Below the pieces are notes generated by a model, which had not been told where the DNA came from, searched no databases, and saw only the letters and a list, made by a program, of their open reading frames with translations. A DNA stretch of 28,951 nucleotides from a virus, in the IMG/VR virus record IMGVR_UViG_3300013101_000062, positions 1 through 28,951 of that record; one strand, 5' to 3'. Positions 5,801 through 23,673 of the stretch are shown piece by piece. Position 1 is the stretch's first letter, and each line of letters begins with the position of its first letter. Both the position numbers and the translations under genes were made by a program.

Positions 5801-8800
5801 AAAAGGCTTGGCGGCTTCCTAATTGCACAATTGGGAATAAAAGCTGCTCAACTGTTTGCTTCTGTTGTAGTCACGCGACTTACTGGTGCATTTGCTCTTG
5901 CAGGTGCAGGCTTAATCGCATCAATCTTAGCCAATACAGTGGCTCAATCATTACTAGGTGCTACGATTCTCGGCGCAGTGATTGCTATCGGAGTACTATT
6001 ATATGCCTTTAGTAGTGAGATTCGTGACTTCTTTCAACCAATGTTTACTGCTATTGTAGACCTTGTCATATGGATTGAAAAACTATATAACGCCATTACA
6101 GATTGGGTCTCTCTGAATGCTGGAGATATAGTTGATGGCATGGTGAGTGTGACGAATACAATCGCAGACAAGCTGCTTGAAGTGTCACCTCAATGGGTTA
6201 AAGAGTTACTTGGGCTAGGTAGCGAGTGGAAGAAAGAACTTGAAGCAACTTCTGAAGAATGGTCAAAGACACTTAATACTCAAGTAGTATTCGAAAGATT
6301 CTTTGGTATTAAATACTTGTCCGATGTATTAGGCTTCGGCAGTGTTCCAAGTCCGTTGCAAAGAGCAGCTGGTGGTTCAATAAGTGGTCCAGGTACAGGT
6401 ACCTCTGATTCTATTCCTGCAATGTTGTCTAATGGTGAATTTGTAATTAATGCAAAGGCTACTAAAGAAAATAGAAATTTACTAGAGAGAATAAATAGCG
6501 GTAATCTACCTAAGTTTGCGGAAGGCGGCTTCATAGATAGGCTAAAAGAGGATTATTCAGGCTCAGGCCTTAGTAACTTATTAGAAGGTTCTTGTTTTCC
6601 AAGAGTAGGTCCACTGATAAAAGAAGCTGTATCTATAGAGAACCCAACTTCAGAAGAAAGTGTAGACTTTTTAAAAAGAGTTAAGGCTGTTTCTGGTGTC
6701 AATAATCTCACAGAGCTACAGACTTATTTGAAGCTATCTGCAGTAGATTGTCTATTTAAGTCTAAAGGTGTAACTGAAGATGCCTTTCAATATATAAGAT
6801 CTGCTATAGAAGCGCTTGTAGGTAGACCTATTCCCAGTATCCCTGATATATCTGATATCAATTCAGTAGTAAAAATGGGTGATTTTGTAGGTTCATTAGG
6901 TGGAAGTCTGACAGAACTTTTATGGGACACAGGTGTATCAAAAGTCAGACCTTATGTTTCATTTGCTCAAGACAAATATAATGAAGGGCTGCCAGAAGAC
7001 CAAAAGAGAATAGAAATATCTGCAATTGATAAAGGTGCCCTATGGGCTGGTGGTGGATTCGGAGTAGGTTCTGTTGCCGGTATTGGGGCTGCAGGAGCAA
7101 ATATTGCAATAGATATCTTTAGCGTAGTGTCAGACTCTATCGGTAAGATAGGACAAGTAAGTAGTAGTGCAGTTAATGGCTTACGAGACATTAAAGAGGT
7201 TGTGCTAGATGAAGTCTGGAAGGGCAATTCGCCTATAGATGGCTTTAAGAAAGTCTTAGGTGATACTAAATTTGACATTGGGAAGATGAAAGATCTAATA
7301 CCCAAGGATGGTATAAGAGGCTTGGGCAAAGGCTTAACTAATCTAGGTGTTTCAATATGGAGTAAAAGCGTCTGGGGTTCACTTAAGAAGTCATTAACTT
7401 TTGGCGGAGTGGGCGGTGCGCTTAGTGGCCTTGCCGGAACTGTAGTAGGCTTTGTTGAAGAGGCTTTAACCGGCGAGGTTGGTGAGAGTGGATTGAGACC
7501 TGACGCATTGTCTTCTATCAGTACTTTCATCAATGATGGAAAGATAGGTTTGGGTGTAAGAAAAGCTATTGTTGGATTTTCCACAGGTGGGCATGTTAAT
7601 GGAGATGGTACAGGTACCTCTGATTCTATTCCTGCAATGTTGTCTAATGGTGAATTTGTAATTAATGCAAAAGCTACTCGTGAGAATAGAAATCTATTGG
7701 AAAGCATAAACAGTGGGCAAGTATCTAAATTTGCAGAGGGTGGGTTCGTACGGCTTAAGAATAGAGCTAAAGAAATATTCACAGGGCCGAAGGATTATGC
7801 TACTCTTGCTGAGTATCCTGATGAGCAAAAGGCTCAACGAATTGCCTCTGATGATGTAGCTGCTAGATTAAGCAGTCTAGGGATAACTGATATTCAATAT
7901 GGCGCGGATATATCGAAATACCAATATCAACCTTTTGTCAACCGTATCACTATTCCAAATCTATATAATCACTCGTCTGACGAACTAGATGCTCAATACG
8001 GCATGGCGTTACATGAAGTGGGGCATGCCGTCGATCTTTTAGGGAAATTTGGGCCAGCCTTATCGTTTGCACAGTCAGCATTCGGGGATACATTAAGACT
8101 TAGTACTGAAGAGCTTAAGACAATTGAGGCAACTCCTGAACAGCTTGAACAGATAGCTCCTGTTCTAAAATACTTAGATGAAAATCAATTAGGCTCTGAA
8201 GCGAATGCTACAAACTATGCATTAGATAATGCAAGGTGGCAAAGCCCAGGACTTACTAAAAGACTTGCTGTAGCACTAAGGACTTATTTTGCTAACCATC
8301 TTGAGAAGTATAACTTTAGAAGCTTACTTAGCGAAGGTTCACCGGAATTATATCAAGCGAATTTTGTAAGTAGCTTTGAAAATTATGAAGCTGCTCTTAG
8401 TGGGCTAGACCTTTTGGATGACGGTGTTTTAAATAAGTCTGCTACGATAACAAACTCTAAGTTTTCGAAGCTATCTAAAATAGAAGACGATTCAATATAT
8501 TTAAACAGCTTTAAGCGAGGGACGCGTTTTAACAGCTCTATAAATGCTGCTAATACAAGTATCTCAGATCTGCTAAGTGAGCAGCTGAATGTGATAGATT
8601 TTGACAGAGATGATGTGAGAAGAACTGGAGAGTACCTTAATGCTTCTAGAAAAAGACTAGATACTCATTTGGCAGAAAATAAAGTAGAACTGTTTGGGCA
8701 TAAGTTCGATGGATACGAAGGTCTACTAGGTCAGGACAATTATGGTACTGTAATCTTAAGAAACGATGTAAATGAAAGAGAAGGTCGTTTAAAGAGAGAC

Positions 8801-11134
8801 TTAGAAATACTTTTAAACTCTATCGATCTTTACAAAAGACTAGCTAATACTGATGTGACTAAGCTTGCTTCAGGTGGACATATCAGTGGGGCAGGTACAG
8901 GAACATCTGACTCTATCCCTGCAATGTTGTCTGATGGTGAGTTTGTTATCAATGCAAAGGCTACCAAAGAAAATAGAAATCTGCTTGAAAGTATAAATAG
9001 CGGTTCTATTCCTAAGTTTGCCTTAGGTGGTTTCTTTAGTGCTGGTTCAGCAGTTGCGAATGCAGCAACAAGTGCAGTTACTCAACCTGATGTGCTTAAA
9101 GTTCAAGAAACTAAAGGGACTTTCTTTAATCTCTTGGGCAATAAAATCTTAGGATTCTTTGAGAAGTTAGTTGGCAAGGGTAATTTCACATCTATAATGG
9201 ATGGCCTCACTACTATATTCGATAGATTTAGCGGTAAGGGTACGTTAGCTAAGAGGTTTACTGAAGAGAAAGACTACAACAAAGCTATAGCTCAATTAAA
9301 TGAAGATCTAAAGAGTTTAGGCTTAGCTACTACAGTAGACCTTTTAAAACAAGCCACTGAGTCTCAGATTAATAGAATTGTCTCAGGTGCAAATAGTTTA
9401 GACCAAGCTAACAAGAGCTTAAAGGAGTCTAAAGATGCAGCAAAAGCTTTAGGAATAGACAAAACTAAGGATGTTTTTCTTGATGAAGATAAGATAACTA
9501 GATTCACTAAAACCCTTGGGAAAGAACTTGAGAGGCTTTCTAATGGACTTGGTAGCGGTAAACCAGAGACCACCCCAGATGTAGGCAAGAAGCTGAAAGA
9601 GCAGTTTGACAATATAAATTCTGCATTTCCTGATCTCGGTATAACTATAGATGAGTTCTTTAGACTGTCTAAGAAGACTATGAAAAAGTTTGAAATAGAA
9701 GCTGATCGTCTAATAGATACAAAAGCTCTACTTGATACTATTCCAGAGACAAAGACAGGCGAGTTTGACAACCGAAAGAAGGCTGTTGAATCTCTATTTC
9801 CTGACTTAGAAGAGCCAGCTATTACTACACGGGCAAAGAGTGTTAAAGATGTTTTAGAACTAGCGCCTCTTTTGGAAAAGTTTAGAAAAGATGGTACTAA
9901 GATACTGAATGAAGAGTTAAATAAAGTAAGATCTTCATTTGAGTTTCTCAGTAAAGGTTTGTCTAAGTTTGGTAAAACAATAGATGAAGATACCTTCGAT
10001 AAGATGTCAGAGTCTGGCCGTAATCTAATAGAGGGATTCTTAAATACTCTCAAGACTCAGTCACAGCTCCTTAAAGGTGAGCCTACTGAAGCTCAAAAAG
10101 CTGCGGCTAAGGAACTCATTGCAGCTGCATCTATAGGAATAGATGAACAGTTAGCGTTAGCTGTACAAACCTATACTAATAGAATAGTAGAGTCAGGTCA
10201 ACAATTTGCACAGAATGTTAAATCAGGTGTGAGAACAGCCTTCTCAGGTGTTTTGACAGGAACAAGTGATATAGAAGATTTAGTGGATAAGCTAACTACA
10301 GCATTTACTACTTCTGTTATAGACACCTTCTTGAATAGTTTCTTTGATGGTCTTGTTGGAAAGGATAGTGCTGTAGGAAAGTCTATGGAACGTCTTGGAA
10401 GGCAGCTATCTACAGGCGGTTTGCTATCAGGCGACCTTCTTGGCAATGGTGGTGGAAGTGCTGACATAATAAAGACAGCAGATGCTGGACTTCAGGATGT
10501 TATTGTAGACAATACCACAAGCGTCACTGGTGCAATCTTGGCAGGCAATGAAGCACAACCTGGATTGTTTAAAGAGATAGGTACTTTATTTACTCTCGGT
10601 TTCCAATCATTGACCAGTATGTTCACTGCTACATCAGGACTTAATAGTGGTGGCGGCGGCCTTGGATTGCTTGGAGGAATTGGTTCGGCATTAGGAGATA
10701 TCGGAGACTTCTTTACTGGTGGCGGTACATCTGCTTCAGCTAACAGTGCATTAGACTTGGTAGACTTCTTAGACTTTGCTCAAGGCGGGCGTGTTTCAGG
10801 TGTTGGTACAGGTACCTCTGACTCTATCCATGCAATGTTATCCAATGGCGAATTTGTTGTCAATGCAAAGGCTTCAAGAGATAATCTTAGACTTCTTACC
10901 GCAATCAACTCAGGTGGTAAGATAAGCCAATTTGCTAGTGGCGGCTTAGTAGAAGTTAATACCAATAGTCCTAGTAGTCAATTTAGTGCCAACGGAGCTA
11001 GTGGTCAACCTAGCGAGCAAGTGTTCAATATCAATATAACCGGAGATGTTACTCAACAGACTCGTAAAGAAATTCAGCATATGATACCTCAGATAGCTGC
11101 AGGTGTTGCTAAACAGAACTTCGAGAGACGTTAG
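2834..11134 (+). CDS. Tape measure protein, very long and modular
   Basis: A 2766-residue protein that sets tail length and is ejected ahead of the DNA. The start ATG 2834 follows AAAGAGGG. Residues 1-230 match the lambda gpH-type tape measure N-terminus (NRFAGEELRAVFEAAPVFAIQLAKGM, then LRGLAEKGKLTFSTIFNAI). Long helical and hydrophobic segments follow, including glycine-alanine membrane-like stretches near residues 485-520, 660-720 and 910-1060. A short element, VGSS-x-VPD, occurs twice (residues 436 and 546). From residue 1180 a 54-residue Gly-rich repeat appears four times and separates three modules: 1234-1584 (unknown), 1639-2013 (HExxH peptidase-like) and 2068-2650 (helical C-terminal tape measure region). 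The end (NINITGDVTQQTRKEIQHMIPQIAAGV) is typical of tape measure C-termini. The chaperone genes upstream support the call. Confidence 0.93.
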   Translation: MAIQIETRSDSKAARADLQKLQKSVNNIEKSTVNATKAFSGMATGIVATVAAVGGFSVVTSEVDKFKNLENRLRTVTSSTEEFGIALANVKEIAIATRSELSSTANLYSKVALAGRRFGISQKAVGNFTSAVTKSLAISGATAAEASSAILQLGQGLASNRFAGEELRAVFEAAPVFAIQLAKGMDVPFDRLRGLAEKGKLTFSTIFNAISKQQKEIDENFKKIGVTYGTAFTTLGSAVSILGNELGKRVFGTGKGFADDIYEAAKSIFDFVTSIDFHIANIKLQLSTLLTDVLVKYLKVRDVIEAPFIAIAETVKKLREVLKEAGVSVDNLSDKFFKAFDVLASAILLIKNVVLGLTAFLVDKVSEIGPKLYDNIIDAVVRLKIVVKELLSRIFEDIPEIKLADLFPSLDAAKEQLITFTDDTIAAFENMYYEIVGSSSVPDMIKGIIKWFAKLLDEPLKTMSKFVDENIVLVVLLAKAVTLYFLIFSSLRHTFRQVLIIFALTIAGLSAAGTDLSSVMLKIGHIVLDGVEFIANAFKWLYKVVVGSSYVPDLINKIDEWFGKLNKDPLSSVTKFTDKAASLFSDLKDTVVDLFDAVNRLDIVRGSKQFFGIKDTFEGKAGTENIDTESYVGRGPERNEKNRSTGHDFFNSFNEGSSRRAMGMAMTAIMTASLFAAFTSERVVGAIKIVAVVVTAALVTGNIESLTTGLANIATSFVEFVINGLKAAGRVGNLSIAVGLTAIVAKLSLAFAAGRSFFLDILRRFLTIPSTLGVAATERTQSGILRLQGAALDRKRVKAEKGLADKQKSTAKKFDKAVNRLVGTKDDRGQTITQKRIDAFSSSKNRNFLALGVSNQENTKKLIKANKNLAKVNTKLAPKIAQQIKGFAQIQKGYDKQQKQLTKASEARTTAFRTSVSQAGGAVGGAVGFALGGLIGADIADSMAGSPAWAKIGVQIGTAVLTSTLGAGLGAILANATTGIFVLLYTQAIKRLGGFLIAQLGIKAAQLFASVVVTRLTGAFALAGAGLIASILANTVAQSLLGATILGAVIAIGVLLYAFSSEIRDFFQPMFTAIVDLVIWIEKLYNAITDWVSLNAGDIVDGMVSVTNTIADKLLEVSPQWVKELLGLGSEWKKELEATSEEWSKTLNTQVVFERFFGIKYLSDVLGFGSVPSPLQRAAGGSISGPGTGTSDSIPAMLSNGEFVINAKATKENRNLLERINSGNLPKFAEGGFIDRLKEDYSGSGLSNLLEGSCFPRVGPLIKEAVSIENPTSEESVDFLKRVKAVSGVNNLTELQTYLKLSAVDCLFKSKGVTEDAFQYIRSAIEALVGRPIPSIPDISDINSVVKMGDFVGSLGGSLTELLWDTGVSKVRPYVSFAQDKYNEGLPEDQKRIEISAIDKGALWAGGGFGVGSVAGIGAAGANIAIDIFSVVSDSIGKIGQVSSSAVNGLRDIKEVVLDEVWKGNSPIDGFKKVLGDTKFDIGKMKDLIPKDGIRGLGKGLTNLGVSIWSKSVWGSLKKSLTFGGVGGALSGLAGTVVGFVEEALTGEVGESGLRPDALSSISTFINDGKIGLGVRKAIVGFSTGGHVNGDGTGTSDSIPAMLSNGEFVINAKATRENRNLLESINSGQVSKFAEGGFVRLKNRAKEIFTGPKDYATLAEYPDEQKAQRIASDDVAARLSSLGITDIQYGADISKYQYQPFVNRITIPNLYNHSSDELDAQYGMALHEVGHAVDLLGKFGPALSFAQSAFGDTLRLSTEELKTIEATPEQLEQIAPVLKYLDENQLGSEANATNYALDNARWQSPGLTKRLAVALRTYFANHLEKYNFRSLLSEGSPELYQANFVSSFENYEAALSGLDLLDDGVLNKSATITNSKFSKLSKIEDDSIYLNSFKRGTRFNSSINAANTSISDLLSEQLNVIDFDRDDVRRTGEYLNASRKRLDTHLAENKVELFGHKFDGYEGLLGQDNYGTVILRNDVNEREGRLKRDLEILLNSIDLYKRLANTDVTKLASGGHISGAGTGTSDSIPAMLSDGEFVINAKATKENRNLLESINSGSIPKFALGGFFSAGSAVANAATSAVTQPDVLKVQETKGTFFNLLGNKILGFFEKLVGKGNFTSIMDGLTTIFDRFSGKGTLAKRFTEEKDYNKAIAQLNEDLKSLGLATTVDLLKQATESQINRIVSGANSLDQANKSLKESKDAAKALGIDKTKDVFLDEDKITRFTKTLGKELERLSNGLGSGKPETTPDVGKKLKEQFDNINSAFPDLGITIDEFFRLSKKTMKKFEIEADRLIDTKALLDTIPETKTGEFDNRKKAVESLFPDLEEPAITTRAKSVKDVLELAPLLEKFRKDGTKILNEELNKVRSSFEFLSKGLSKFGKTIDEDTFDKMSESGRNLIEGFLNTLKTQSQLLKGEPTEAQKAAAKELIAAASIGIDEQLALAVQTYTNRIVESGQQFAQNVKSGVRTAFSGVLTGTSDIEDLVDKLTTAFTTSVIDTFLNSFFDGLVGKDSAVGKSMERLGRQLSTGGLLSGDLLGNGGGSADIIKTADAGLQDVIVDNTTSVTGAILAGNEAQPGLFKEIGTLFTLGFQSLTSMFTATSGLNSGGGGLGLLGGIGSALGDIGDFFTGGGTSASANSALDLVDFLDFAQGGRVSGVGTGTSDSIHAMLSNGEFVVNAKASRDNLRLLTAINSGGKISQFASGGLVEVNTNSPSSQFSANGASGQPSEQVFNINITGDVTQQTRKEIQHMIPQIAAGVAKQNFERR
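4139..4240 (+). repeat. Tape measure VGSS-x-VPD element, copy 1
   Basis: Residues 436-469 of the tape measure protein begin VGSSSVPDMI and continue with IIKWFAKLLDEPLKTMSKFVDE. The same pattern recurs 110 residues later. Related 'VG-x-S-x-x-PDM' elements recur in other tape measure proteins. Confidence 0.7.
4469..4570 (+). repeat. Tape measure VGSS-x-VPD element, copy 2
   Basis: Residues 546-579 begin VGSSYVPDLI and continue with KIDEWFGKLNKDPLSSVTKFTDK. The aligned positions VGSS-VPD, WF-KL, DPL and KF match copy 1. This points to an old internal duplication of about 110 residues. Confidence 0.7.
6371..6532 (+). repeat. Tape measure 54-residue repeat, copy 1
   Basis: Residues 1180-1233: GG then SISGPG, then GTGTSDSIPAMLSNGEFVI, then NAKAT-x-ENRNLLE-x-INSG and a closing KFAEGGF. 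This element is a recognised feature of many tape measure C-terminal halves. Its core is nearly identical in DNA sequence to copy 2. Confidence 0.9.
7586..7747 (+). repeat. Tape measure 54-residue repeat, copy 2
   Basis: Residues 1585-1638. Over a ~72-nt core starting at the GGTACAGGTACC motif, only one base differs from copy 1, although the surrounding modules are unrelated. That suggests a recent duplication or gene conversion. Confidence 0.9.
7748..8872 (+). other. Tape measure module with HExxH zinc-peptidase signature
   Basis: Residues 1639-2013 of the tape measure protein, bounded by repeat copies 2 and 3. The motif MALHEVGHAVDLLG places HEVGH at residues 1727-1731. GSEANATNYALDNAR follows, giving a candidate third zinc ligand, Glu1789, 58 residues after the motif, as in gluzincin-type metallopeptidases. 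The preceding text (ARLSSLGITDIQYGADI...RITIPNLYNHSSDELDAQYG) reads as a small globular domain, not a tape-like helix. A role in cutting an envelope protein during DNA entry, or in tape measure maturation, is inference. Cleavage has not been shown. Confidence 0.65.
8873..9034 (+). repeat. Tape measure 54-residue repeat, copy 3
   Basis: Residues 2014-2067. The protein sequence is close to copies 1 and 2 (GTGTSDSIPAMLSDGEFVI, then NAKATKENRNLLESINSG), but several third-codon positions differ, so it is an older copy. It closes with KFALGGF. Confidence 0.9.
10784..10948 (+). repeat. Tape measure 54-residue repeat, copy 4 (most diverged)
   Basis: Residues 2651-2705, one codon longer than the other copies. 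IPAML has become IHAML and ENRNLLE has become DNLRLLT. It ends QFASGGL near the tape measure C-terminus, the place where this element occurs singly in many other phages. It may therefore be the ancestral copy. Confidence 0.85.
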
Positions 11135-17677: not shown

Positions 17678-17732
17678 CGTACCCTCACGGTACGTTTCCC
17701 CATTGCCGTTCCCTCGGTGATGGGGCTTTTTT
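17678..17732 (+). terminator. End-of-structural-operon terminator (tandem hairpins)
   Basis: A 6-bp hairpin (17678-17683 with 17689-17694) is followed by a strong 11-bp stem (17698-17708 with 17715-17725, two G-U pairs) with a 6-nt loop and CTTTTTT. It lies just after the last structural gene and before the accessory region, so it most likely ends late transcription. Confidence 0.85.
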
Positions 17733-17908
17733 ACGCAGCCGTCTTGAGGCACTCTATCTCACTTATTTTCAGTCGCCAGAAACATTGAGAGAACTCCGCG
17801 CGACCCCGTTAAATTAACCCTTACGTGGCCTCCCCCATTATCATGGAGGAATACCTTAGTTGGATAGTTCCCAGTAAATATTAATAAAAATATATATATA
17901 AAATAAAA
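17733..17908 (+). promoter_or_regulatory. Non-coding segment with a candidate promoter
   Basis: About 175 bases without a credible gene. The last ~50 bases are extremely A/T-rich (TAATAAAAATATATATATAAAATAAAA). A possible sigma70-type promoter is TTGGAT at 17860-17865 and TAATAA at 17882-17887, spaced 16 bases. An inverted repeat CCTCC/GGAGG surrounds 17830-17849. This would be a logical entry point for host RNA polymerase at the start of the accessory genes. The match is weak and the call is tentative. Confidence 0.3.
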
Positions 17909-17930
17909 TGCGCAAAAAGGGGTATCTTAT

Positions 17931-17960
17931 ATGAAAGAACAACCCCCCAATACGACCTAG
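17931..17960 (+). CDS. Candidate leader peptide in repeat copy 1
   Basis: Nine codons, MKEQPPNTT, preceded by AAAAAGGGG seven bases before the ATG. The stop TAG lies inside the GACCTAGGAGGTC element, so a ribosome ending here would cover the Shine-Dalgarno sequence of the next gene (17972). Two consecutive Pro codons could slow translation. This is inference from sequence; no homologue is known to me. Confidence 0.35.
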   Translation: MKEQPPNTT

Positions 17961-17966
17961 GAGGTC
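17954..17966 (+). promoter_or_regulatory. GACCTAGGAGGTC element 1 (Shine-Dalgarno in inverted repeat)
   Basis: A GACCT/AGGTC inverted repeat with a 3-base centre. In RNA it could fold into a 5-bp hairpin that hides the AGGAGG ribosome site. The ATG of the next gene lies 6 bases after it (17972). Confidence 0.75.
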
Positions 17967-17971
17967 ATATC

Positions 17972-18190
17972 ATGAAAATGAAAAGCTCTAAAATATTAGT
18001 TGATATGTTAAGTAAAGAAGCCTGTAAGGACGTTGCCCGAAAGATGATTATGCTAGGCAGGGATGAAGAACCTTCAAGAAGAGTTTTAGGCGAACTGGCC
18101 ATAGCTCTTGTTGCTTATGAAAATGAGCCTAAATTGCGTAAGCTTTTCTATCTTAAGGATTGCATTCAAAACACGCTCACTGTAATGTAA
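17972..18190 (+). CDS. Small cytoplasmic protein of unknown function
   Basis: A 72-residue basic, probably all-helical protein (MKMKSSKILVDMLSKEACKD then VARKMIMLGRDEEPSRRVLG). There is no signal peptide, membrane segment or known motif. It is the first gene of the accessory region and is preceded by the 58-bp leader repeat and an ideal ribosome site (AGGAGG, 8 bases from the ATG). This suggests strong and perhaps regulated translation. In T7-like phages this position, upstream of the RNA polymerase gene, holds host-takeover genes. That is a context argument only, and no function can be named. Confidence 0.6.
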   Translation: MKMKSSKILVDMLSKEACKDVARKMIMLGRDEEPSRRVLGELAIALVAYENEPKLRKLFYLKDCIQNTLTVM

Positions 18191-18191
18191 T

Positions 18192-18207
18192 AAAAGGTCT
18201 CCTTTTT
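18192..18207 (+). terminator. Small hairpin with T-run between accessory genes
   Basis: AAAAGG-TCT-CCTTTTT forms a short 6-bp stem with a 3-nt loop ending in five Ts. It may act as a weak terminator or RNA end between the first two accessory genes, each of which then begins with its own leader repeat. Confidence 0.35.
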
Positions 18208-18220
18208 GTGTAATTAAAAC

Positions 18221-18279
18221 TGCGCAAAAAGGAGTATCTTATATGAAAGAACAACCCCCCAAATACGACCTAGGAGGTC
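18221..18279 (+). repeat. Leader repeat, copy 2 (59 bp)
   Basis: Near-identical to 17909-17966. The one substitution turns AAGGGG into AAGGAG, a better ribosome site. One extra A shifts the reading frame of the contained mini-gene. It precedes the gene at 18284. Confidence 0.85.
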
Positions 18280-18287
18280 TATTATGA
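18243..18287 (+). CDS. Candidate leader peptide in repeat copy 2
   Basis: Fourteen codons, MKEQPPKYDLGGLL, with AAGGAG nine bases upstream. The reading frame runs through the GACCTAGGAGGTC element. Its stop TGA (18285-18287) overlaps the ATG of the next gene (18284), giving ATGA, so the two could be translationally coupled. The first six residues are identical to the copy 1 peptide. The frame could simply be a by-product of the repeat. Confidence 0.35.
   Translation: MKEQPPKYDLGGLL
18267..18279 (+). promoter_or_regulatory. GACCTAGGAGGTC element 2 (Shine-Dalgarno in inverted repeat)
   Basis: Identical 13 bases to element 1, ending 5 bases before ATG 18284. It carries the AGGAGG ribosome site of that gene. 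Confidence 0.75.
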
Positions 18288-18565
18288 AAAAGTTATTCAC
18301 ATTACTGTTTATTATGTCTTTACTTGTGTCTACCTCTGCCTTGAGCTGGGGAAATTGCGAGGGCAATATAGAGAGCGTTGATGCTGAGGGTCACCTTAAG
18401 ATAATCCTTGTTTATTATAACTCGCCTATACTGTGTCATTTTAAATTAGGCGATGTAACTAGGTATGAGATAGCAAATATACCGAAGTTCAGCACGAAAG
18501 TTGACCCCGTACTCAAGGCAAAGTTTGAAGCGGAAATGGAAGAAACTATTAAGGATGCAAAATGA
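18284..18565 (+). CDS. Small exported protein, unknown function
   Basis: A 93-residue protein with a clear Sec signal peptide: MKK, hydrophobic LFTLLFIMSLLVSTSALS, and a probable cut near residue 20-21. The mature part (~72 residues) contains two Cys (WGNCEGN and ILCHF) that could form one disulfide in the periplasm, and then a charged helix (DPVLKAKFEAEMEETIKDAK). There is no lipobox, so it is not an o-spanin-type lipoprotein. It shares its leader with the first accessory gene. Envelope targeting, for example exclusion of other phages or a lysis role, is plausible but unproved. Confidence 0.6.
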   Translation: MKKLFTLLFIMSLLVSTSALSWGNCEGNIESVDAEGHLKIILVYYNSPILCHFKLGDVTRYEIANIPKFSTKVDPVLKAKFEAEMEETIKDAK

Positions 18566-18566
18566 T

Positions 18567-18698
18567 ATGGAAACATATTTTAGTTTTCTTGAAGTCTTAG
18601 CCTATCTACTGATGTTTGGTAGTATAGGTTACGGCTTACTTATTATCCTGTATTTTATATTTTCACTCGTAATGAAAATGTACAGGCGTTTTGGTTAA
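18567..18698 (+). CDS. Small membrane protein (43 residues)
   Basis: METYFSFLEVLAYLLMFGSI continues through GYGLLIILYFIFSLVM to a basic end, KMYRRFG. This is one long, or two short, membrane segments with a positively charged C-terminus that should stay in the cytoplasm. An earlier in-frame ATG (18555) would add four residues; it sits directly on AAGG, so 18567 is preferred (AAGG 12 bases upstream). The gene begins within a few bases of the previous stop. Size and topology are holin-like, but no endolysin gene is present in the window to support that. Confidence 0.5.
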   Translation: METYFSFLEVLAYLLMFGSIGYGLLIILYFIFSLVMKMYRRFG

Positions 18699-18706
18699 TT
18701 TAATCA

Positions 18707-18719
18707 GACCTAGGAGGTC
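18707..18719 (+). promoter_or_regulatory. GACCTAGGAGGTC element 3
   Basis: Identical 13-base inverted repeat, here without the longer leader. It ends 4 bases before the ATG (18723) of a 19-codon gene. Confidence 0.7.
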
Positions 18720-18722
18720 ATT

Positions 18723-18782
18723 ATGGTTATTCTACCTTACATTATTTTAGGTGTTATTTATTTTGGTATACTTTGGTTTTAA
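18723..18782 (+). CDS. Micro membrane peptide (19 residues)
   Basis: The complete product is MVILPYIILGVIYFGILWF, hydrophobic from end to end and just long enough to cross a membrane once. It is preceded by an ideal ribosome site inside the same 13-bp inverted repeat that precedes longer genes of this cluster, and another copy of the element begins 6 bases after its stop. This argues that it is a real gene and not chance. It would be missed by ordinary gene callers. Possible roles are a regulator of a larger membrane protein, an anti-holin, or a membrane-disturbing peptide. None can be shown from sequence. Confidence 0.5.
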   Translation: MVILPYIILGVIYFGILWF

Positions 18783-18787
18783 ACTAC

Positions 18788-18800
18788 GACCTAGGAGGTC
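18788..18800 (+). promoter_or_regulatory. GACCTAGGAGGTC element 4
   Basis: Identical 13-base inverted repeat preceded by TAC as in elements 1, 2 and 5. It ends 5 bases before ATG 18805 and so fixes that start over an upstream in-frame alternative at 18751. Confidence 0.75.
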
Positions 18801-18804
18801 AATC

Positions 18805-18954
18805 ATGAACATCTATCTTGAAATATTGATGTACATCACTGTTATAGTGGTTGGCGGTATTGTACTGGTAGGTCTCGCCCATCTGACCTTAAAATATGGG
18901 GTAGTTGAATTTAATGGATATATCGATTCTCTCACTAATAGGAGATTGAAATGA
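18805..18954 (+). CDS. Small membrane protein (49 residues)
   Basis: MNIYLEILMYITVIVVGGIV then LVGLAHLTLKYG: one strong membrane segment (residues 5-30), followed by a short soluble tail ending NRRLK. The start ATG 18805 is chosen because the GACCTAGGAGGTC element sits directly upstream; a longer reading from 18751 would overlap the 19-residue gene. The stop overlaps the next start (ATGA, 18951-18954), so the two are probably coupled. Together with the next gene, a TM-plus-coiled-coil protein, this resembles lysis cassettes, but the function is uncertain. Confidence 0.55.
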   Translation: MNIYLEILMYITVIVVGGIVLVGLAHLTLKYGVVEFNGYIDSLTNRRLK

Positions 18955-19235
18955 AACTCTCATCCATTACTTTTATGCTAGTATTTGTTGTAATCGCTAT
19001 GGCTTTTGGCATGTATACACAACATGGTATGTTATACAATTCGCGGTTACAGGTTGATCAAGCTGCTATTGAAATTATACAGCTAGAGACTTCGAACTCG
19101 ATGTTAGAGAGTCGTCTCGACAGAGCCATACGTGATAATCAAGAAGCCGGCAGAATTATACTTGAGCTGGCACTTCGGAAGGATAAGCTACCTGCGGAAA
19201 ATGGGGTATCTTATATGAAAGAAAAAGAGAACTAG
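18951..19235 (+). CDS. Membrane-anchored coiled-coil protein, i-spanin-like
   Basis: A 94-residue protein. One N-terminal membrane segment (residues ~5-22, ITFMLVFVVIAMAFGMYT) is followed by a helical periplasmic region (35-80; DQAAIEIIQLETSNSMLESR, then LDRAIRDNQEAGRIILELAL) with heptad-like spacing. This is the layout of Rz-type inner-membrane spanins, although it is short for that family. No lipoprotein partner gene is visible. The start is ATG 18951 with AGGAG 6 bases upstream. The last ~14 codons, encoding (A)ENGVSYMKEKEN, are formed by a third copy of the leader repeat, so the C-terminus is probably a recent addition. Confidence 0.45.
   Translation: MKLSSITFMLVFVVIAMAFGMYTQHGMLYNSRLQVDQAAIEIIQLETSNSMLESRLDRAIRDNQEAGRIILELALRKDKLPAENGVSYMKEKEN
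19193..19223 (+). repeat. Leader repeat, copy 3 (truncated, inside a gene end)
   Basis: Thirty-one bases match 17909-17939 with two mismatches, up to and including ATGAAAGAA, and then diverge. Here the element lies inside the 3' end of the gene at 18951 and its ATG is in frame with that gene. Confidence 0.8.
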
Positions 19236-19493
19236 TCACTGCTGAATACTTGTATCCCCTGCCATACAGCCTACAAGATAAAGATTCAGTAAACGATGAG
19301 AATCCCTAGTAGCCGGTATGGTCGGCAAACGGGCGGAATGGATAGAGAGTAAGTGAGCCTGCTTACATTTCTATTCAACCGAATACATAGAACCAGGGAA
19401 TCGGGTATTGGTATCCCCTATTAAAAGGCACCCACTAATCAAATTAAGCGTAGATCAAGCGTGTTGTAATTGATCAACTTTCCTACAAACTAC
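19236..19493 (+). ncRNA. Candidate structured RNA between accessory genes
   Basis: There is no credible coding frame in 258 bases. A branched fold is visible. Closing helix GAATCCCT (19300-19307) pairs with AGGGAATC (19395-19402), with one A-A mismatch. Inside it are hairpin GCCG/CGGC (19312-19315 with 19323-19326) and a long hairpin (19340-19353 with 19362-19376, one bulged A) extended by CGG/CCG. The word GTATCCCCT occurs twice (19252 and 19411), and GATCAA/TTGATC form an inverted repeat near 19453-19476. The segment ends at element 5. It could be a regulatory leader of the gene at 19511 or a free small RNA. It does not fit a tRNA or a group I intron core. Confidence 0.4.
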
Positions 19494-19506
19494 GACCTAG
19501 GAGGTC
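19494..19506 (+). promoter_or_regulatory. GACCTAGGAGGTC element 5
   Basis: Identical 13-base inverted repeat preceded by ACTAC, as in element 4. It ends 4 bases before ATG 19511 and closes the structured non-coding segment. Confidence 0.75.
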
Positions 19507-19510
19507 TATT

Positions 19511-19837
19511 ATGAAAACTTTATTGTTAGCTCTATTATTGTCTGTTTCTACTTTCGCTAACGCTGATTGGTTTAGCGATGTGAAAGAAGATACAAGCGAT
19601 TTGTATCAACGTACCGTCCAAGTTACTACAACCTGGTATGGCGAAACTAAAGAAGATGTCAGCAAGTGGTATGGTATACACAAAGACGTCGATAGTATAG
19701 TTGAAAAACTTCATGCATATAACGACTATGAATGTGAAAGTAATATGTCATTCTGTGCTGAGAAAGGAAGACTGTACGAAGAAGTCATGCTTGCACTTAA
19801 TGGTTTCGAAAAAGAAACTACTGTTGAATCTAAATAA
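19511..19837 (+). CDS. Exported protein with repeated Trp-containing helices, unknown function
   Basis: A 108-residue protein with a Sec signal peptide (MKTLLLALLLSVSTFANA, predicted cut before DWF). The mature part begins with two similar units, DWFSDVKEDTSDLYQ and TWYGETKEDVSKWYG, acidic amphipathic helices carrying aromatic residues, followed by a helical region with two Cys (YECESNMSFC), which may form a disulfide in the periplasm. It is translated from the fifth GACCTAGGAGGTC element. It is most likely a periplasmic protein acting on the envelope. Binding to a membrane surface through the aromatic units is inference. Confidence 0.6.
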   Translation: MKTLLLALLLSVSTFANADWFSDVKEDTSDLYQRTVQVTTTWYGETKEDVSKWYGIHKDVDSIVEKLHAYNDYECESNMSFCAEKGRLYEEVMLALNGFEKETTVESK

Positions 19838-20507: not shown

Positions 20508-20562
20508 CCCTACCACTTAATTGTGGTAGGGATTCTCTTCTCGCGTGTATTTTTTTTTTTTT
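20508..20562 (+). terminator. Hairpin followed by T13 tract
   Basis: A perfect 9-bp stem CCCTACCAC/GTGGTAGGG (20508-20516 with 20523-20531) with a 6-nt loop is followed, 18 bases later, by 13 consecutive Ts (20550-20562). The distance between stem and T-run is larger than in a standard intrinsic terminator, so the hairpin may mark an RNA end by another route. It lies between the accessory genes and the RNA polymerase gene. Confidence 0.55.
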
Positions 20563-20577
20563 ATTTGGAGTATAATT

Positions 20578-20715
20578 TTGACTAAAGAGATAGCCCTCAT
20601 AGTATCATACATGTTTAGTGTATTGATATATTTTGCCGCATTTGGCATAGGGTGTATTTTATTGGTTAAGGTTCTGCCCTATATATTTAAAATCTTGTTT
20701 TGGGAATATGCATGA
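20578..20715 (+). CDS. Small membrane protein coupled to the RNA polymerase gene
   Basis: A 45-residue protein starting at TTG 20578 with GGAG 8 bases upstream: MTKEIALIVSYMFSVLIYFA continuing through AFGIGCILLVKVLPYIFKIL to FWEYA. One or two hydrophobic segments span nearly the whole length, typical of a small inner-membrane protein. The stop TGA (20713-20715) overlaps the ATG of the RNA polymerase gene (20712) as ATGA. Ribosomes ending here could restart on the polymerase gene, which otherwise lacks a strong ribosome site. The TTG start and small size make the call moderate. Confidence 0.5.
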   Translation: MTKEIALIVSYMFSVLIYFAAFGIGCILLVKVLPYIFKILFWEYA

Positions 20716-21893
20716 ATGGTGTTCTAGTTAACTCTATAAAGAGTAGAATAGATACTGAGATAGCACCTCAAAGTCCGCTCAAATATTTAAAGAGCTTGGA
20801 CATTGAAGAGTGTATCCTAAATGTAATATCTGTAGTGTATCTCTACACCCGTACTAAGAAAGGTATGCATAAGAATGTGACCTATCTTACAGAAGTAATA
20901 TCAGCTATAGGGCATGGTCTCAGGAACAGACAAGGTCTGAAACGGGACTCATCCATAGCAGCTAAGACAGGCGCATTCTTCTTATACAGCTTTGAAGAAC
21001 TCGGGATGATAGAAGTAGTTCTATCCAGAGGAACAAAGAAGCATAATGTATATGTAATAAATGTGCTTGATGATGACAAGCTTGCGAAGCTCTGGGAGAG
21101 CTTACCTGCAAGTAAGATAGAGAAGTTACCTAAAAGTAAACCTTATGCCGCATGGAGTGGCGCTAAACATGAATGTGGAATGTCTCTAATAAAGACAGGA
21201 AATAAAGGTGTCTTAGAAAAGGTTAATTTAGAAGACCATCCAATCATATTTGACTGTGTAAACAAAGCACAGCAAGTAGGTTGGAGGGTGAATGAAGAAG
21301 TATATGATATAAGTGTGTGGGCACTCAGAAACAAAGCAGATGCTTTCTCTGATATATGGGATCAGCATAATCCCCAAGCAAGGGCTACTAAGTTGCGAGA
21401 AGCAAAAGCCGTTGGGATGATAGCTAAGAAGTTCATTGACACAACATTTTATCATTTGTACTATTACGATTTTAGAGGAAGGAAGTATCCATCAACTGCA
21501 TATCTACATGAGCAAGGCGCTGATCTAGCTAGAGGGCTTCTTCTTAGGGAAGATAAGAAAGCTATCGGTAAAGACGGCTTCTTCTGGCTTCTAGTGAGTA
21601 TAGCTTCTAACTGGGCTGGAGATGCAGGTAGAGAAGATGGTGTTAAGACGGATAAGATACCTTTAGAAGCACGATCTAAGTGGGTATTGGATAATGAAGA
21701 AATTATACTGTCTTATGCTGAATCCCCTAAAGTAAATCAAGGGTGGATGAAAGCAGACAAGCCGTGGCAATTTATTGCTGCATGTATTGAGCTAGCTAAT
21801 TTTAGAATATGGCAGATGCAGAAAGAAGCATCGTACATGATGTCATATGATAAGTATGGTTATGAGTCTCATCTTGAGTGTTTTATAGACGGT
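20712..21893 (+). CDS. T7-like single-subunit RNA polymerase, exon 1
   Basis: Encodes residues 1-394 of a phage RNA polymerase (T7 gp1 family) that would transcribe the phage's own genes from dedicated promoters. Start ATG 20712 overlaps the upstream stop (ATGA). YYDFRGRKYPSTAYLHEQGA followed by DLARGLLL matches T7 'MDFRGRVYA...PQGNDMTKGLL'. The exon ends ...ECFIDG, in the middle of motif A: Asp393 corresponds to T7 Asp537, a catalytic metal ligand. An in-frame TAA follows at once (21894-21896), so without splicing only an inactive 394-residue fragment would be made. Joined to exon 2 the protein has 750 residues, against 883 in T7, with the deficit in the N-terminal domain. That could alter promoter melting or lysozyme-type regulation. 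Confidence 0.93.
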
Positions 21894-22602
21894 TAATTGC
21901 GGCTGTCTTAAAATCCTGTTAATTCGGTGGACATCCTTCTGGGACAATGCCGAGCCAAAATACCAACCTAAGTTGGTTTTAGGTGTAACGACTATTATGT
22001 AGAATCAAGTGATTCGAAACACAGGAGTGTATTTATTATGCAAGATATAGTCTCATCTGCATGGCAACATGCAGCAGTTGAGTGGAAGCGCATTGAAGAT
22101 AAGTATTATATATCGTCTGATGGAAAAGTAAAAAGTATTCTCAACAAACGAGAATTAATTTTGAAAACTAGAATAGATCGATATGGGTATGAAATCGTAA
22201 CCTTATGGATATTAGGGAAAGCTTATACTAAGAAAATCCATAGGCTTGTAGCTAGTGCTTTTATAGAAAATCCAAACAATTTAGCGACGGTTAACCATAA
22301 AGATGGTATTAAAATAAATAACCATGCAGCTAATCTAGAATGGAACAGTATAAAAGAAAACCACACACATGCTTTTAAAACAGGATTACATACAGTAGGT
22401 GAAAATAGAATAGCAGGAAAGAAAGTAAAGCTTAATAATAATTCTGTAAGAGAGATAAAAGGTCTTATTAAGGAAGGTCTCTCTAATACGGAAATAGGTA
22501 AGCTATATGGTGTTTCTTGTGGTTGTATATATTCTATTCGTGTGAAAAAAAGTTGGAAGCATATAGACGGGTAGAGATTAACGTACTCTATTGAAGATAA
22601 TG
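21894..22602 (+). ncRNA. Group I intron (709 nt) in the RNA polymerase gene
   Basis: The exon reading frames join perfectly when 21894-22602 is removed. The last exon base is U and the last intron base is G, as group I rules require. P1: exon AGACGGU (21887-21893) pairs with 21902-21908, with U-G at the splice site. The R/S core is present: GUAACGACUA (P7 5' strand, GACUA 21990-21994) and GAUAUAGUC (P7 3' strand, UAGUC 22048-22052). Other helices are 21962-21967 with 21972-21977, P8-like GAATCA/TGATTC (22002-22015), and P9-like CTGCATG/CATGCAG with a GCAA tetraloop (22057-22074). The homing-endonuclease gene starts at 22038, inside the core. Confidence 0.92.
22038..22574 (+). CDS. Intron-encoded homing endonuclease (NUMOD4 + HNH)
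   Basis: A 178-residue enzyme expected to cut the intronless RNA polymerase gene and so spread the intron. A NUMOD4-like domain (about residues 14-65: W-K-R-I-E-D-K-Y-Y-I-S-S-D-G-K-V-K-S) is followed by an HNH domain (67-110) with KKIHRLVASAFIENPN and VNHKDGIKINNHAANLEW, in which His87 of N-H-K-D-G is the expected catalytic base. A C-terminal helix-turn-helix (132-175, VREIKGLIKEGLSNTEIGKL then YGVSCGCIYSI) should contact DNA. The start ATG 22038 has AGGAG 10 bases upstream. The first ~13 codons also encode the P7 3' strand and P9 hairpin of the ribozyme, so both functions share sequence. Confidence 0.92.
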   Translation: MQDIVSSAWQHAAVEWKRIEDKYYISSDGKVKSILNKRELILKTRIDRYGYEIVTLWILGKAYTKKIHRLVASAFIENPNNLATVNHKDGIKINNHAANLEWNSIKENHTHAFKTGLHTVGENRIAGKKVKLNNNSVREIKGLIKEGLSNTEIGKLYGVSCGCIYSIRVKKSWKHIDG

Positions 22603-23673
22603 TCAAATAACGGTAGTCAACATCTCTCAGCTCTTACTAGGGATGAAATAACTGCTCCTCATGTCAATCTTGTTCCTTTAGATCTTCCTGGTGATCTATA
22701 TAAATATGTAGCAGATAATGTCTGGGAAGATATAGAAAAGACTCTTAGTGCTTATAGTAAGGCTGAGATAAAAGAATGTGAAAACTTTATTGACAATTTG
22801 ATTGAAATAAAGAAGCGCATAAACAGCGCCGAACCTAAGAGTGATCTTAGGAAAGAGCATATAGAAGCTATACAGCTGTTCAAGAAGACTAATGATATAT
22901 TACTCGATATCTCTGCTCCAGTCTTCTGGGCAAGGATTAAAGACGCCAAACACAGGAGAAAGGTTGTCAAGAGAAATGTTATGACACTTCCATATGGTGG
23001 TACTGCCTATGGACTTGGACAACAAATGATTGATGACTCTAAGAAACACGGTGTTGAGCAGCTGCTATACATGGAGCACAAGTGGGGAGCTTATATGGGA
23101 AGAGAGGTTTACAATAATTGTAAGCACTCATTAAAACGGCCTATGCAACTTTTGAATGTGTTTGAAGCAGCAGGTAAGAAGGCTGAAGTCGAAGGTCGAT
23201 TTCTGTCTTGGACTGTACCTATGACTGGCTTTCCTGTAGTACAAAACTACACACAAGGCAGAGTTAAAAAGATATGGGTTCAATATGGTCCACCTGATGG
23301 TGAAAGAAATAGTACCGGCTATTTTGATAATACATTTCAACTTGCAATATGTTTCGTGGAAGATGTAAAACCATCTAAAGGTAAGCAATCACAAGGTGCT
23401 TCACCTAATGCCATACACAGTCTCGATGCAGCACATCTAGCCTTGACGGTTCATAGATGTGACTTTCCAGTGACTACTGTGCATGATTCATTTGGCTGCC
23501 TTCTCTCTGACATGCCCGTGTTATTTAGGACAATAAGAGAGACGTTTGTGGAGTTATATTCAAACGATCCTTTGCAAAAACTTATGGAGGATATTGATGG
23601 AGATCTAAGAGGAGTATTAATTGGCGATTTAGATTTATCACTGGTACTAGATTCAGAGTATTGTTTTTCATGA
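22603..23673 (+). CDS. T7-like single-subunit RNA polymerase, exon 2
   Basis: Encodes residues 395-750. It opens with SNNGSQHLSALTRDE, completing motif A (T7 'DGSCSGIQHFSAMLRDE'). Motif B, KVVKRNVMTLPYGGTAYGLG, supplies Lys517 and Tyr525 (T7 Lys631 and Tyr639, the nucleotide-selecting tyrosine). Motif C, TTVHDSFGCL, supplies Asp689 (T7 Asp812). PNAIHSLDAAHLALTV and a C-terminus ending DLDLSLVLDSEYCFS correspond to T7 'PNFVHSQDGSHLRKTV' and the C-terminal 'ESDFAFA' foot. All catalytic residues are present, so the spliced enzyme should be active. The frame is open for 12 bases upstream into the intron without a good start site, as expected of a spliced exon. The stop overlaps the next start (ATGA). 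Confidence 0.93.
   Translation, partial: SNNGSQHLSALTRDEITAPHVNLVPLDLPGDLYKYVADNVWEDIEKTLSAYSKAEIKECENFIDNLIEIKKRINSAEPKSDLRKEHIEAIQLFKKTNDILLDISAPVFWARIKDAKHRRKVVKRNVMTLPYGGTAYGLGQQMIDDSKKHGVEQLLYMEHKWGAYMGREVYNNCKHSLKRPMQLLNVFEAAGKKAEVEGRFLSWTVPMTGFPVVQNYTQGRVKKIWVQYGPPDGERNSTGYFDNTFQLAICFVEDVKPSKGKQSQGASPNAIHSLDAAHLALTVHRCDFPVTTVHDSFGCLLSDMPVLFRTIRETFVELYSNDPLQKLMEDIDGDLRGVLIGDLDLSLVLDSEYCFS

Follow-up and report, generated by a model that had tools for sequence, protein, structure and literature searches.

The closest described counterparts of the element analyzed here are short repeats at the ribosome-binding sites of actinobacterial phages. Genomes of cluster K mycobacteriophages carry 11-19 copies each of the 13-bp Start-Associated Sequence (SAS), GGGATAGGAGCCC, at ribosome sites; about half of these have an upstream extension (ESAS), and the sequence, described as asymmetric, is found across three subclusters (PMC3203893). 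Its authors argued that the SAS is more than a good Shine-Dalgarno (SD) sequence but did not find its role (PMC3203893). Microbacterium phages of cluster EF have ten copies of a 13-bp motif, GGGAAAGGACCCC, likewise at ribosome sites and each linked to a conserved stretch upstream (PMC7302621), and the function of the SAS was left open in both the 2011 and the 2020 papers (PMC3203893, PMC7302621). The consensus sequences of both motifs begin with GGG and end with CCC. Two further systems bear a partial likeness, namely, the promoter early stem-loops (PeSLs) of T4-like phages, which are short repeated cassettes among small accessory genes that promote gene shuffling (cited in PMC4503421), and the coat operator of MS2-type phages, in which the SD lies within a small hairpin before the start codon (PMC9894550).

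The window, that is, the whole stretch of DNA analyzed here, is a virus record of 28,951 bp that resembles a siphovirus fragment and encodes a T7-like RNA polymerase. Its tail genes, with a distal tail protein and a J-like protein, are of the siphovirus type and are followed by a block of small genes (17.9-20.5 kb) and, downstream of it, by the genes for the T7-like RNA polymerase, an ssDNA-binding protein, a T7-like DNA polymerase and an exonuclease. A hairpin is located on either side of the block:

17698..17725, + strand: terminator-like hairpin at the end of the tail gene operon, ahead of the block
20508..20531, + strand: strong hairpin separating the block from the RNA polymerase gene

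For the DNA polymerase, the nearest cultured relative is phage DSS3_VP1 (37% identity), which is classified in the Naomviridae, and about 70 IMG/VR loci contain relatives of the DNA or the RNA polymerase. The order J, small genes, RNA polymerase is seen in several long IMG/VR relatives; the tail protein 17172, used as a query, yields no close relatives among the records searched. Elsewhere in the window, the RNA polymerase gene (20700-23673) is interrupted by an HNH endonuclease ORF (22038-22574). The gene is uninterrupted in relatives such as L127 and has insertions at other points in L130, L131 and L184-L186; these insertions are probably intron-borne or free-standing homing endonucleases, and no Rfam intron reaches the threshold in the window. 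Three to four internal repeats of ~110-162 nt (6363-10885) lie within the gene of a 2766-aa protein, probably the tape measure.

An exact-match search finds the 13-mer GACCTAGGAGGTC five times within 1.55 kb of the window, always on the + strand, with no further copies in the window at up to one mismatch. The copies and the genes they precede, with the properties of the products read from the sequence, are:

17954..17966, + strand: hairpin ribosome-site element copy 1, exact match, before gene 17972-18190
17972..18190, + strand: 72-aa small protein of no family, without signal or membrane segment
18267..18279, + strand: element copy 2, exact match, before gene 18284-18565
18284..18565, + strand: 93-aa protein with a signal-peptide-like N-terminus
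18707..18719, + strand: element copy 3, exact match, before the 19-aa ORF 18723-18782
18723..18782, + strand: ORF of a 19-aa hydrophobic peptide (MVILPYIILGVIYFGILWF)
18788..18800, + strand: element copy 4, exact match, before gene 18805-18954
18805..18954, + strand: 49-aa hydrophobic membrane peptide
19494..19506, + strand: element copy 5, exact match, before gene 19511-19837
19511..19837, + strand: 108-aa protein with a signal-peptide-like N-terminus

The first-pass annotation of this DNA had reported five identical ribosome-site elements before genes for a small cytoplasmic protein, two exported proteins and two membrane peptides, and both the copies and the gene types agree with the sequence. 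The gap between the element and the start codon, given there as 4-5 bases, is 4 or 5 in four copies but 3 in copy 3 (5, 4, 3, 4 and 4 bases to the ATG for copies 1-5, with AGGAGG-to-ATG spacers of 7, 6, 5, 6 and 6). In 300 simulated windows matched to it in composition (Markov orders 1, 3 and 5), no 13-mer occurs more than three times; five identical start-site copies are far above chance.

The arms of the element, GACCT and AGGTC, show perfect 5-bp complementarity around the 3-base loop AGG, and its SD core, AGGAGGT, comprises 7 bases complementary to the 3' end of 16S rRNA. The reading of the element as a recurring ribosome-site module that can fold into an SD hairpin is supported; because all five copies are identical, the arms display no covariation, so that base pairing as such is a prediction. 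The GACCT arm and the last C, which lie beyond the AGGAGGT match to 16S, are invariant in all five copies. At the block genes 18951, 19849 and 20229, the SD is of the ordinary kind and the GACCT arm is missing. Searches of the window for Rfam families and for tRNAs detect none. The product of ORF 18951-19235 is a 94-aa protein with an N-terminal membrane segment and a weak Rz-like spanin match (E 0.05), and the block may include lysis genes among its members.

In several respects, this arrangement resembles the SAS: a 13-bp ribosome-site repeat, in five copies, lies directly (3-5 bases) upstream of the starts of genes from different families, is conserved beyond what 16S pairing needs, and is rare outside its own phage cluster. 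There are also differences. GACCTAGGAGGTC deviates from the SAS consensus at more than two positions, and conservation across the cluster, a feature of the SAS, does not extend to the window element, which is absent from the related records searched; furthermore, the SAS belongs to phages of a Mycobacterium host and is present in more copies, whereas the window has perfect 5-bp arms, a better inverted repeat than either the SAS or the EF motif, and a T7-like RNA polymerase. The EF motif differs in sequence and host, and its linked upstream sequence is not a recognized phage RNA polymerase promoter. The window element works like both motifs but belongs to neither by sequence, and SAS and EF motifs are the closest known kind. 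The first-pass annotation knew of no described system of this type; the SAS/ESAS elements provide the precedent.

A motif, TGCG..AAA..RGTATCTTATATGA or TGCGS.AAA..RGTATCTTATATGAWA, is present in one to three copies in the small-gene blocks of relatives; its core has 79 matches in the relatives compared with three for the reversed control, and the version with fixed spacing is found in 16 of 27 records when whole records are searched. In the window, the motif and the cassettes around it are located as follows:

17910..17932, + strand: promoter-like element GCGCAAAAAGGGGTATCTTATAT, with the motif conserved at the same place in relatives
18222..18244, + strand: second promoter-like element, motif match
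19194..19216, + strand: third promoter-like element, motif match, within the 3' end of ORF 18951-19235
17905..17966, + strand: promoter-leader-ribosome site cassette, copy one of a direct repeat
18217..18279, + strand: copy two of the same cassette, the pair flanking gene 17972

From its position and conservation, the motif is likely to be the promoter of the phage RNA polymerase. The motif is directly upstream of element copies 1 and 2 and ~280 bases upstream of copy 5; copies 3 and 4, which are 81 bases apart in the same apparent operon, have no such motif of their own. Predicted transcripts starting just after TATAT often have a 5' hairpin (mean z -1.08, n=55 leaders, 53% below -1), and in the first two leaders of the window the 13-mer is the sole predicted hairpin. 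Repeated leaders that combine promoter and hairpin seem to be a general feature of this phage group. In the relative L172, one 5'-terminal hairpin, GAATAGGAATAATCCTAT, recurs behind the promoter at three places (6237, 8353 and 8769). Between the third promoter and copy 5, ~255 bases (19236-19490) contain no convincing gene and include a strong local hairpin (~19337-19375); as a structured RNA, the long leader 19217-19510 was rejected, its stability not being in excess (z -0.45).

Copies 1 and 2 sit in a duplicated promoter-leader of ~62 nt in which 33 of 36 upstream bases are alike, and the identity of these two copies is, judging by their flanks, due to recent duplication; given that the duplication flanks gene 17972, recombination could excise this gene cleanly. 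The upstream flanks of all other copy pairs have 8-17 of 36 bases alike. Copies 2 and 5 additionally have TATTATGAAAA downstream in common, and copy 3 has only the 13-mer in common with the others. The suggestion of the first-pass annotation that the element is a linker by which small gene cassettes recombine is partly supported, by the duplicated leader and by the leader similarities and the gene difference between L203 and L204 described below, but copies 3-5 share little beyond the 13-mer. Given that the flanks of copies 3-5 have largely diverged with all 13 bases intact, selection appears to act on the 13-mer, including its 5' arm. Leader copying is apparent in relatives as well: the leaders that follow the promoter are more similar within than between genomes (mean scores 5.9 vs -1.9; 0 of 2000 permutations). 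PeSLs join a promoter to a stem-loop rather than to a start-site hairpin and are repeated between accessory genes; in the window, a promoter-leader is repeated at copies 1 and 2, and copies 3 and 4 have no promoter motif.

The 13-mer itself is absent from all 26 related records searched, so that a switch shared by the phage group of the window is not supported. The first-pass annotation had proposed a shared switch and asked for such a search, with absence from relatives as one half of its refutation test. No promoter followed by the element was found elsewhere in IMG/VR. SD-centered hairpins as a class number 22 in the small-gene blocks of relatives compared with 15 expected, a count reached in 11 of 300 shuffles, so that any general enrichment is only marginal.

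Beyond this group, a scan of viral sequences for the 13-mer before ATG lists at least 119 loci, and among these listed loci the 13-mer or its form GACCTNGGAGGTC is single-copy in all but two. In one listed locus, L024, GACCTNGGAGGTC stands close to a start three times, and the same number is found in its relatives L204 and L203, the latter from a contig of 54.7 kb. In L203 and L204 the arms are constant, and whether copies of one genome or orthologous sites of the two are compared, only the first loop base varies; this conservation is weak evidence on its own because the two are ~93-95% identical overall. A 21-kb stretch of L203 has no protein match to the window and lacks the window promoter, so by this comparison L203 and L204 represent an unrelated phage group. 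An 81-aa gene of L203, flanked by ~73-bp leader repeats, is absent in L204, a case in which a small gene and its leader were gained or lost together. Among other viral sequences, a contig of 71% GC (L021) has two exact copies, at 361 and 5561, one before an ATG and one before a GTG, and across loci L006-L124 the 13-mer stands singly at gene junctions (CCGGGGCAATGTGACCTAGGAGGTCGATGTGAGC-like and GGCGCGGTTAAAGACCTAGGAGGTC) in many further phages. Many single-copy viral loci represent one recurrent junction context readable as ...DLGG, where the C-terminal codons may also provide the SD for the gene downstream, a coincidence of coding and SD sequence. In bacteria, the extended pattern has 52 scattered matches in genome_contigs, many of the alphaproteobacterial ones in one recurrent junction context, ACGACCTGGGAGGTCAAGCGATG; the 14 genomes checked have one to three scattered copies each and no motif set, and the reading of the element as a host motif was rejected.

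The repeated ribosome-site hairpin module is real, specific to this phage, not conserved in its relatives and has a described precedent. With a probability of roughly one half, it is a translation-initiation module private to this phage and comparable in action to the SAS, provides strong or coordinated translation, and owes its spread in part to the copying of promoter-leader cassettes. The strong SD AGGAGGU, 5-7 bases from the AUG and embedded in a 5-bp hairpin with a 3-nt loop, would serve five accessory genes in a block whose transcription apparently starts at promoters of the phage RNA polymerase; the predicted hairpin would not block the ribosome site but hold it in a local structure that melts easily, and the module may have reached new genes partly through cassette duplication, with selection then preserving the 13-mer alone. 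In favor of this best explanation are the five start-site copies, a 5' arm that has no SD role and is nevertheless identical in all of them despite largely diverged flanks, the low predicted stability of the hairpin relative to SD-16S pairing, the conserved promoter motif, the leader similarity within genomes, the three sites in L203 and L204 and the likeness to the SAS; the absence from relatives, the marginal enrichment of SD-centered hairpins there and the recent duplication behind copies 1 and 2 count against it. Copying alone, with recent duplicates of one leader homogenized by recombination and the hairpin functionless beyond an ordinary strong SD, is possible if unlikely: it fits the 62-nt duplication that bears copies 1 and 2, the sequence downstream of copies 2 and 5, the leader similarity within genomes of relatives and the gene present in L203 but not in L204, yet copy 3, with only the 13-mer in common with the others, the 13 bases kept between the diverged flanks of copies 3-5, and identical arms in a phage unrelated to this one speak against it.

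The identity of all 13 positions would also be expected if a phage or host RNA-binding protein recognized GACCU-NGG-AGGUC and jointly repressed or activated the five genes in the manner of the MS2 coat protein. The constant arms and variable loop base in L203 and L204 and the high predicted pairing probability of the hairpin in four of the five sequence contexts fit such a translational operator, which we nonetheless regard as a minority possibility: no candidate binding protein was identified, relatives of the phage lack the element, and the 14 bacterial genomes checked lack the motif as a set. The MS2 operator is a single, more stable site with a known protein ligand (PMC9894550). That the window phage and the L203/L204 group each adopted this sequence as an operator read by a trans-acting factor, supplied by host or phage, that coordinates several genes is quite improbable. 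Although the hairpin covers part of the SD, an RNA-only switch, be it a thermometer or simple occlusion, that opens without any factor is very unlikely. The predicted fold of the 13-mer has -4.1 kcal/mol compared with -11.4 kcal/mol for SD-16S pairing, and in the MS2 coat system expression reaches 80%, 100% and 20% with hairpins of -6.6, -7.9 and -9.5 kcal/mol, respectively (PMC9894550); being weaker than the hairpins that block MS2 translation, and even than those that leave it at 80-100%, the hairpin alone should not silence genes. The element is probably not a strict on/off switch, to judge from these energies, but a bound protein could silence genes via the hairpin. Very little likelihood attaches to a dimeric DNA-binding protein that would regulate transcription from GACCT-N3-AGGTC: the perfect 5-bp inverted arms would suit it, but the distance to the start codon and the orientation are fixed, with the SD always on the sense strand, copies 3 and 4 are inside an apparent operon without a promoter motif of their own, and the block shows no sigma-70-like excess.

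Independent hairpin versions of such sites in two unrelated phage groups, outside the actinobacterial phages with SAS and EF motifs, suggest that ribosome-site repeats private to a phage are a design that recurs. The version in the window sits, at copies 1 and 2, directly behind putative promoters of the phage polymerase, and the self-complementary arms are a concrete, testable feature of these ribosome sites.
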